In this document: in pieces, positions 23,492 to 26,651 of the stretch | Layout of the letters: each line of letters opens with the position of its first letter | How positions within the stretch are numbered: position 1 is the first letter of the stretch | Assembly (NCBI GenBank): GCA_003024175.1 | Contig: MDYQ01000176.1 | Coordinates: 23,960 to 87,959 of the forward strand | Reading direction: 5' to 3' | DNA length: 64,000 bases | Source: Planoprotostelium fungivorum | Lineage: Eukaryota; Evosea; Variosea; Cavosteliida; Cavosteliaceae | Made by a program: the position numbers and the translations under genes | Notes under the pieces: generated by a model | Database searches by the model: none | Told to the model about the DNA's origin: nothing | What the model saw: the letters and a program-made list of their open reading frames with translations, nothing else

Positions 23492-24513
23492 TTAAACGGA
23501 AGAGGAGTTGGTCTTGGCGATCTCATATTCTTTGCGATATATGTGGATGCCTTCAGAGAAGAGAGCCTTCTCATCTTTCCACCCCGTCAGATTTCTCAAC
23601 TTGTCGCTGCTGACCCTATTCAACGGTCAGCCATCACGTAATCAACACGATCATCTTCTCACCACTGAGAAAATCCAGTTAATATGGTATACTTATCGTA
23701 GCTTGTGGTGATCAATGGCTTCGGCTCATATTTCGTCTCTCTCGTGATACCATACTCTCTCTGGACAGCTGCGGCCACCTCATCGAGGGTCTCATAGCGG
23801 TGACCGGAGATGTTAAAACACTGACCCATCACATCACGACGCTGAGCGTGTTGGGCGATGGACACGTAGGCTTCTCCACAATCGTCCAAGTGAAGTCCGT
23901 GCATCATTGTCTTTGGATGGGAATGGAAGATGAGCCCATCTTGAGATCGCTCTGCAATCTCGAAGAGAGGTCCGTAAAGACTTCCTCCAAGACCAAATAC
24001 AGTGGTGGGACGTAAGATGACCACATCCAATGTGGATTCAGACAGGAGAGATCGGGCGGCTTTCGTTCGAGGCGCCAGAACGGGAGGAGGATTGAGAGGA
24101 CTCTCTTCTGTGTGGGGTTTGGAATTCTCATTCTCAATGTCCATCTGTCCGTAATCTTTGCAACCCGATGTGAACATGAGGAGGGGCCGGATGCCATGTT
24201 CGGTACTCTTCTCTGCCAGCTGACGAACCATTCGGAGGATCTCTTGAAAGTGGGTATCATAATCGTCCAGTTGTTCCGTGTTGCTGACGATCACATCGAA
24301 TGTGACGGATTGAGAATAGAGGGTGTTCAGAAATGAGAGATCTGAGGGAGATCCTGAGATGGGAATGATACCTTGAGTGGATAGCAAGGAGATGGCGGAG
24401 GCATTTCTAATCAGACCGAAGGTCTTCCAGCCAGCTCTGACAAAAGCACGTGCCACTGCATTACCGATGGAACCGTTGGCGCCTGTGACCAATGCAACTC
24501 TGTGAGAACTCAT
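23492..24513 (-). CDS. NAD-dependent epimerase/dehydratase-like extended SDR
   Basis: The start at 24513 leads straight into the Rossmann nucleotide-binding motif (ALVTGANGSIGNAVARAF). Later come LRPTTVFGLGGSLYG and HGLHLDDCGEAYV, positions typical of atypical/extended short-chain dehydrogenases acting on nucleotide sugars or similar substrates. The usual YxxxK is represented only loosely (APRTKAARS), so catalysis is uncertain. An intron at 23607-23662 removes the apparent stop after FSQ and adds a terminal exon (DKLRNLTGWKDEKALFSEGI) ending at 23492. The substrate cannot be assigned. Confidence 0.75.
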
Positions 24514-25274
24514 TGAGATCGTTTTGTGGATTCGCTGACGATGTCAATTGATGACGCGATCGATGCGAATCATTTGTTTGAATGATTTGAAGAAGATTTT
24601 GTGGCAGGTAGAAAGAGATAGATGCGTTGTCTCATGATCGATGTAAAAAGGTTTCTGTCCAAGTGATTCGTGGTGCAACATCAAATACCGTTGCATTTCC
24701 TTCGCAATATGATATCCATGTTTCTATACGTATAGATATGATCAAATACGATGCTCAGTTGTGGTGGCAAGAAATGATGCGTCTGATTACTTATTGTTTT
24801 GTGGTTGTAGAGCTCAAAGCGCGCGCAAAAATTTTCATTTTTCAAAAAGGTAGCGAGCGCGCGCATCACGCTCCCTCAGCCGTCTGGTCCCTCTTCCTTG
24901 CACCTCGAATCGCCTCGGACCAAGGTATGAGTAAGAGGTATGCCTATATATGTCCTTATATTCTCCCACCTTCGATCCTCTTCTTCCATTTTTCATCGAC
25001 TGTCCCTCTTTAGACTCCTGTCCATATCCTATCGATAGGTAAGACCCTTTGGTTCCTTCTCTTCTCTCCTTATTTCGAATTAAATGCATCTATCATATCG
25101 ATTATCATGGGTTACCATGTGGTCACACTGACCTTTCAAAGTGTCTATGACCTCTTTCTAACGATACCGCAGGTGTTTCCAAGCCGTTTTAAAGGCGGAG
25201 GGTTGTTATTCGGAGCCCACAATTTTTCGCGGTCAACTTAACGGTCACCTGACACCGCAGGCACCCCAGGAAGC
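24514..25274. other. intergenic region upstream of the U2 snRNA gene
   Basis: No protein gene was recognised. It contains a GCGCGC-flanked AT core (about 24820-24864) and, closer to U2, an ACCGCAGG octamer twice (25166-25173 and 25254-25261, the second ending 14 bp before U2). These are candidate snRNA promoter elements by position only. Confidence 0.4.
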
Positions 25275-25538
25275 ATCTTCTCGGCTTTTTAAAGCTTAGA
25301 TCAAGGTAGGGTCGCGATTTCTCTTCACCACATCACATCATCATCACCCATCAGCATTTCTGACTCGAAAACAGTGTAGTATCTGTTCTTATCAGTTTAG
25401 TCGACTGATAGCCCTGGGTACTCCAGGGCATCCGACTAAATTAATTTTTCTCACGGGTGAGAGGATCAACACCGGAGCTTGCGAAGGTGCCTCTTACACG
25501 GATGAATTCAGCATTGCACTGAAGCTGACTTTCGTCCA
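25275..25538 (+). ncRNA. U2 spliceosomal snRNA, interrupted by an intron
   Basis: U2 pairs with the intron branch site in the spliceosome. The first 31 nt (25275-25305) match the U2 5' end: ATCTTCTCGG, stem-loop I, then GATCAAG. The match resumes at 25375 with TGTAGTATCTGTTCTTATCAG, exactly the next conserved block, with GTAGTA (25376-25381) as branch-site recognition. Stem IIa (25390-25396 with 25404-25410) and stem IIb (25411-25417 with 25423-25429) are perfect 7-bp helices. An Sm site AATTTTTC lies at 25443-25450. Stem III (GAGG..CCTC) and stem IV with loop CATTGCA (about 25508-25524) follow. Without the insert the RNA is about 195 nt, the normal U2 size. The 3' end is approximate. Confidence 0.92.
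25306..25374 (+). other. 69-bp mRNA-type intron inside the U2 snRNA gene
   Basis: The insert starts GTAGGG and ends AAAACAG. A perfect CTGAC branch site lies at 25360-25364, 10 nt before the 3' AG. It looks just like this genome's pre-mRNA introns. Removing it joins GATCAAG to TGTAGTA and restores an uninterrupted U2. The position corresponds to between human U2 nucleotides 31 and 32. Splicing is inferred, not shown. Confidence 0.85.
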
Positions 25539-26651
25539 CCGTTCAAATAATCAAAAGACACGAAAAAGTTCGATAATCGTAGAAAAACGATATAACGCAC
25601 AAACAACGATGAAAAATACTCGTGGCAGCAGAGGGTGAGTGATGATCGAGATGAAGTGATCGGTGACAGATGAGCTCATTAGAAGAGGTGAGAGATGGAC
25701 AGTCTGATCTATGAAGATTGTGAGAGTCATGATGGGTGGATTTGCATGATCGGATGCTTTCATCTGTGATCGATGAACATCCGAGAGAATCTGATGTTGG
25801 GTTCAATACACGACGAGGAAATGATTACAATAAATTCTCGTGTATCGATCTTTGCTCTGTCTGCACATCACGTTGTGTGACTCTTGCCGATCGTGAGATG
25901 ATCATCCATCTGTTCGAGACTGCACTGGTCGTCACGTCGATGTTTGATGTGGAGTGATGAATCAAATCTCGACTGGATGCATGAATTGGGGAGGGTCGAC
26001 GAGCACATCTTTGTCGTCGTCTCCATCTCCTTTAGATGTGCGAGACGCGATCGCGATAGTGACGATGATGACAAACGAGACATTCACGTGGTCGCTGGAG
26101 TTTGACAGGATTAGACACCAATGTCGATCAACACTGATGACAAACATTCATCACATGTGATTTCTAAACGGTGATCGGGGATAAGATGAAGGATGATGAT
26201 TTCCGTCTTTCAGAGAATGAAGCTTCATCCATGTAGTCAAGCTATCGTATGAGTGATTCTCCCACTCATGCGGGTCAATGTAAACCTCTCTGTCCACTCT
26301 CCATATGTCGTCGATCACTTCATCTCGATCGTTCAATCGCTTAAGACGAATATGGAGTGAGGAGCAATGACGCACGATGGCGGCGGTCGTAGCTGGTGAA
26401 CTTTCTCTTCTTCACCTCACGATCGTCAACCGCCTCTCATCTGGATCAGCTCGGCAAACAGCTAGCAACGCAAGAGAAGAGACGTGATCGTGAGCACTCA
26501 CCACCACGACGAGAAACCAAGAATCAAATTAGATTCTAAAGCATTATTACTCAGTCCCTCGGATAGATATCTAGGCTCAACGGAATGCTTGTGCCTGTTC
26601 CTGGGAATCTTCCAAAGCGTAAATCAGGTAAGAGATTAAGTTAAAAGGTGA
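25539..26651. other. gene-poor stretch downstream of U2
   Basis: Only weak short frames occur here, rich in GATGATGATC-type sequence, and none has a recognisable domain. A TAGATATCTA palindrome lies near 26563. Other non-coding RNA genes could be present but none was recognised. Confidence 0.35.

Follow-up and report, generated by a model that had tools for sequence, protein, structure and literature searches.

The window, a 64-kb stretch of DNA from an amoeba of the Amoebozoa (Variosea), contains a U2 snRNA gene on contig C120 that is split by a short intron-like insert. According to PMC10639083, the NCBI genome labelled Planoprotostelium fungivorum is mislabelled and is really that of Protostelium aurantium. 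A covariance-model search bore out the U2 identity proposed in the initial annotation: RF00004 (U2) was the sole Rfam family above its gathering score in the entire window, with 84.1 bits against a cut-off of 46 and an E value of 4e-15. The true 5' exon is upstream of the insert, which is why the match starts within it. The gene and its immediate surroundings comprise the following features, in window coordinates.

23659-24510, minus strand: neighbouring protein gene, 100% identical over its length to PROFUN_10550
25216-25223, plus strand: putative snRNA promoter element CCCACAAT, with CCACAAT at -58
25275-25540, plus strand: U2 snRNA gene, intron-split
25275-25305, plus strand: U2 5' exon, with stem I and GATCAAG, the U6-pairing segment
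25306-25374, plus strand: putative U2 intron of 69 nt, GTAGGG...AACAG, from sequence and paralog comparison
25343-25544, plus strand: RF00004 match
25360-25364, plus strand: putative branch site of the U2 intron, CTGAC, its A 11 nt before the intron end
25375-25540, plus strand: U2 3' exon, to CCACC, from RF00004, with an approximate 3' limit (~25540)
25376-25381, plus strand: branch-site recognition sequence GTAGTA
25443-25450, plus strand: AATTTTTC, which from its motif we take to be an Sm-like site
25550-25558, plus strand: 3' box ATCAAAAGA

Removal of the insert joins the exons as GATCAAG|TGTAGTA, the sequence found in the six U2 genes of this genome that lack an intron, and makes stem I, the U6-pairing GATC, GTAGTA and the Sm-like site contiguous; all the motifs that we take to be the landmarks of U2 are then present. 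The join is ambiguous by one G, and GT-AG is one of two registers. The initial annotation had described a 69-nt GT...AG insert with CTGAC, placed in an amoebozoan U2 gene directly before the branch-site recognition sequence and parting two blocks that should otherwise be contiguous. That description holds in each respect, the six intronless paralogs providing the uninterrupted form.

The genome holds 15 U2 copies, of which six are intronless and the other nine are interrupted by an insert at one and the same site. They were recovered by a covariance search in which 46 of 645 first-look candidates were scored; 14 of the 15 matches exceeded the cut-off, the exception being a copy cut off at an N. 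The word GTGTAGTATCTGTTCT, sought with up to 1 mismatch, occurs 15 times in the genome, always exactly and at the same 15 loci. The 16-base context of GTAGTA is identical in 15/15 copies, and ATTTTTC of the Sm-like site is found in all three of the classes into which the copies fall.

Class A, intronless: five copies, on C27 (three) and C123 (two)
Class B, insert-bearing: nine copies, on C90, C94, C387 (four), C120 (the window copy), C451 and C23
Class C, intronless and divergent: one copy, L020 on C234, with the promoter element at -57 and the 3'-box pattern unmatched

An insert at the same site in nine paralogs, with six others uninterrupted, is more than chance should produce; the eight insert-bearing copies outside the window had not been noted in the initial annotation. 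Class B is 80-83% identical to class A 3' of the intron (blastn). Its U2 model scores (77-88 bits) are lower than those of class A (94-101 bits), as is expected from an unspliced 5' end. One locus, L019 (C387:110500-112100), is a tandem pair of class B U2 in which the first copy breaks off at a lone N, 68 nt past the recognition word; this N may be an assembly gap.

All nine class B introns are 65-69 nt long, start with GT (eight copies) or GC (one, in C451), have a purine at +3 and G at +5, carry CTGAC or CTAAT, in which the A is always 11 nt from the intron end, and finish in CAG or TAG; these signals were read by eye in nine copies and measured by script in five. The joint pattern of GTNNG, YAG and a YTRAY whose A stands 11 nt from the end arose 0, 0, 0, 0 and 1 times per 200,000 mononucleotide shuffles of the five introns. 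Four of the five real inserts tested match it, while C451, with its GC start, fails. The insert thus has the anatomy of a major-class (U2-type) spliceosomal intron, namely GT(GC)...AG, G at +5 and a CTRAY branch, from which its excision is predicted. A minor-class assignment was also considered and rejected on reading the inserts, from which the ATCC-type donor and TTCCTTRAC-type branch of minor-class introns are absent.

We compared the U2 introns with 26 introns of the same genome, 23 taken from spliced alignment of ten Ras-family stretches and three, of about five, read by eye in Prp8. The comparison introns are 38-87 nt long, have G at +5 in 17/26, and use GTGAG as their commonest donor (9/26); a branch motif was detected in 13/26, its nearest A lying 9-13 nt from the intron end. 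The U2 introns fall within this range in both length and branch spacing. Their donors GTAGG and GTGGG occur in none of the 26, and GTACG occurs once. These unusual donors, together with the one GC start, count against the reading of the insert as a spliceosomal intron.

We consider it highly probable that class B is a functional second class of U2 genes carrying a spliceosomal intron, and we infer from the sequence that it is transcribed, spliced and assembled into snRNPs. RNA polymerase II would probably start class B U2 at 25275 from the snRNA element at -58, and the spliceosome would then remove the 69-nt major-class intron from the precursor, yielding a U2 of about 197 nt with its landmarks in place. 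Intronless U2 of classes A and C could supply active spliceosomes for this step, which would remove the chicken-and-egg problem of a U2 RNA needed for its own splicing. The intron was probably gained once, before the amplification of class B, and its splice signals kept since. In the initial annotation it was held that, if the insert is spliced, the spliceosome must excise an intron from its own U2 RNA. Intron anatomy is indeed present within U2, but since intronless U2 makes up 6 of the 15 copies, the spliceosome need not rely on the intron-bearing kind, and class B could be dispensable.

The expected expression signals surround the class B genes. CCAYAAT lies -57 to -59 from the RNA start in 29/30 copies of U1, U2, U4 and U5, the motif having been picked by eye from the same 30 genes in which it was counted, and it is kept at -58/-59 in 9/9 class B copies. 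The sole copy among the 30 Pol II snRNA genes to lack it is a U4 copy, L040 (C372), perhaps a pseudogene. The 3'-box pattern (CAAAAGA box) was matched in 8/9 class B copies, the remaining one being the copy cut off at N, and in 3/5 class A copies, 0/1 class C copies, 4/6 U1, 3/3 U4 (L040 included) and 5/6 U5; two class A copies without a match have ACAAAAGA near the expected place, as judged by eye. In class B the box lies at +271 to +275, which becomes +206 in each case after subtraction of the intron, close to the +204 of class A.

Helices IIa, IIb, IIc, III and outer IV show full pairing in classes A and B, with helix arms set by hand for one sequence per class, as automatic alignment was off by one in stem IIa. 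Relative to class A, class B carries a single two-sided change in each of helices IIb and III and one additional pair in IIc. When spliced class B RNA is folded without constraints, the minimum-energy structure lacks stem III, although the arms of this stem can pair.

The insert-bearing copies have more in common than the gene itself. They share a unit of about 850 nt that includes a leader with an intron of its own, a feature absent from the intronless copies and additional to what the initial annotation had reported.

24816-25674, plus strand: class B U2 unit, approximate limits, from blastn among 14 loci of 9.9 kb and alignment of nine copies
24828-24848, plus strand: conserved block AAAATTTTCATTTTTCAAAAA, promoter-like by position, from a genome word search
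24980-25038, plus strand: 3' part of a putative leader exon, from the class B alignment and the donor that follows
25039-25172, plus strand: putative leader intron of 134 nt, GTAAGA...CGCAG, from the class B alignment
25158-25162, plus strand: putative branch site of the leader intron, CTAAC, its A 11 nt before the intron end

The block AAAATTTTCATTTTTCAAAAA has seven genome matches at up to 1 mismatch (six exact), all at class B U2, and its reversed control has 0. A 453-base leader query from the window likewise found 10 genome matches, in class B places only, and blastn detected no resemblance between the class A and class B sequences upstream of U2. All nine class B copies contain CTAAY, its A 11 nt ahead of a CAG|GT (motif scripted, spacing read). 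The leader intron measures 132-135 nt in the seven copies with a scripted donor, and its acceptor lies 92-103 nt before the U2 start. Donor variants are GTAGA in C387a (scripted) and GTAACA in C90, the latter taken from the alignment where the script found none. A donor giving 189 nt in the second C387c copy was dropped as spurious, the upstream part of that copy being cut. No known RNA scored above the Rfam gathering threshold in the leader or downstream, and three weak non-U2 matches near these regions (E 0.21-0.43) look like chance.

Conservation of the leader intron suggests that class B units may also be transcribed from further upstream and spliced twice. Taken further, most class B U2 might be trimmed out of a longer Pol II transcript that begins in the leader and has both introns removed first. 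Such a route would fit the leader intron signals, which are kept in all copies having the region, and the restriction of the upstream block to class B genes. However, the -58 element would be needless if U2 were merely trimmed from a longer RNA, yet it is retained in every class B copy, and we regard this route as the main source of class B U2 as rather unlikely. It concerns the transcription start only and is compatible with class B being a functional, intron-bearing U2 class.

A different view is that class B consists of amplified dead U2 copies with an old insertion, so that only the intronless genes make U2. The initial annotation had allowed for this, naming an intronless U2 elsewhere as part of what would reduce the locus to a dead copy. 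Intronless U2 is indeed present, and one class B copy is cut off beside N in the assembly. The pattern of conservation points the other way. Among the eight complete class B copies (the N-cut copy was dropped), the 31-nt 5' exon is identical and identity over the first 160 nt of the 3' exon is 98.1-100%, while the introns between them are 37.7-100% identical, with a mean of 64.1%. Upstream stretches average 60-76% identity, the leader stretch being compared in seven copies, as the second C387c copy is truncated in that part, and the downstream flank averages 65%. The near-identity of the exons comes partly via common descent or gene conversion. Gene conversion should, however, also level an intron lying between levelled exons, and purifying selection on the exons is therefore the simpler reading of their identity. 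Because the promoter element, 3' box, exons, paired helix changes relative to class A in IIb and III, and splice signals of both introns are all conserved, with a U4 copy as the only snRNA gene to lack the element, the class B genes are unlikely to be dead. We still allow a small probability for dead copies because the two commonest donors of the U2 introns are missing from the comparison introns.

It is also conceivable that class B is transcribed with the insert retained, as a U2 variant whose long extra segment serves another role. The nearly constant length of the insert might be taken in this sense. However, the insert diverges to 38% identity except at its splice signals, and if it were kept, 69 nt would separate the U6-pairing segment from the branch-site recognition sequence within the catalytic core, so that we find this reading very improbable. 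Removal of the insert by something other than the major spliceosome, for instance the minor (U12-type) one, deserves almost no weight, since the donor, CTRAY branch and spacing of the insert match the major class, even though PMC10639083 reports 265 minor introns for this genome.

If class B is, as we favor, a functional U2 class with a spliceosomal intron, the origin of that intron becomes of interest. A genome search with the insert (query 25307-25375, one base downstream of the intron) found six places, all class B U2, and no source. Because the diverged introns of C94, C451 and C23 escaped this search, a source of equal divergence would escape it as well. A mobile-element origin, including a U2-targeting retrotransposon, was rejected, as the insert was found only at those six U2 places. 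An exact gapped pattern, used to look for relatives elsewhere, was unmatched in one scan each of prokaryotic and viral contigs, a negative that carries little weight for a eukaryotic gene. The insert lies between two parts of U2, the U6-pairing segment and the branch-site recognition sequence, that are located at the active site during splicing, a position compatible with an origin by reverse splicing. A more tentative proposal, which we think possible but doubtful, is that class B forms a splicing-gated U2 pool that needs spliceosomes built on intronless U2 and two splicings (leader and body), and that could be self-amplifying or stage-specific; on this view the intron would be a natural trace, outside fungi, of an intron that reverse-spliced into an RNA of the spliceosome itself.

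Few snRNA genes contain introns, and such cases have served as an argument that introns can reverse-splice into core RNAs of the splicing machinery. The U2 intron of Rhodotorula hasegawae is reportedly short and placed just downstream of the branch-site recognition region, and this yeast is also said to have introns in U6, U1 and U5. The amoeba gene resembles that reported case in having a short mRNA-type intron in U2 near the branch-site recognition region. It differs, if the yeast details are as reported, in that its intron lies just upstream, between GATCAAG and TGTAGTA, that intronless U2 coexists with it, and that the other spliceosomal snRNAs are uninterrupted: the matches to U1 (6), U4 (3) and U5 (6) span their models end to end at about model length, and U6 gave two full, uninterrupted matches and one partial match. 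The mRNA-type intron in the R. hasegawae U2 gene was described by Takahashi et al. in 1993, as cited in PMC2586383.

Spliceosomal introns in small structured RNA genes are otherwise known from U6 snRNA of fission yeast and other fungi and from fungal U3 snoRNA, as described in PMC5832005, which in 2017 stated that, among small structured RNAs, frequent interruption by an intron was known for U3 and U6 only. The U2 genes described here would be a further instance, in another RNA and another lineage. In PMC5832005, fungal U3 paralogs are presented without diverged families, whereas the amoeba has two diverged U2 classes that differ in the intron. Insertion into U2 genes is also known from Utopia retrotransposons, which according to PMC4640811 include an example from the amoebozoan Acanthamoeba castellanii. 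Unlike Utopia elements, described there as non-LTR retrotransposons, the insert is 65-69 nt, has splice signals and was found only at U2.

No intron in an amoebozoan snRNA gene was found among the open-access matches listed, as judged by titles and abstract openings, which does not in itself establish absence from print. Within the open-access literature searched, novelty appears to lie in the lineage, the position, the leader intron and the presence of intronless U2 alongside. An amoebozoan U2 intron that occupies a new position and has intronless paralogs in the same genome would add an independent case. Since the two U2 classes differ in sequence, they could be measured apart, which makes the question of self-dependence testable, and the leader intron offers a handle on whether splicing gates the supply of U2.

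Several further observations concern the class B units and the other snRNA genes. A possible hairpin, AATCGT...ACGATT, shared among class B copies, follows the 3' box at 25575-25595 of the window and is changed or lost in some of them (by eye). In the leader of the C387 class B copies, CTTAGATCAAGG followed by TA or CA matches the U2 exon/intron boundary exactly over 12-14 bases; this stretch, decayed in other copies, may descend from an old duplication of the U2 5' exon or may be there by chance. On C74, a U6 gene is directly followed by a second, diverged U6 copy (L023/L024), and the partial third match (L025) lies on C448. The six U1 copies (L026-L031), two of which (L030 and L031) score slightly below the U1 cut-off, have 5' ends of two kinds, ATACTTACCTG in 2/6 and ATACTCACCTG in 4/6, and ATACTCACCTG pairs with the GTGAG donors that are commonest in the comparison introns.
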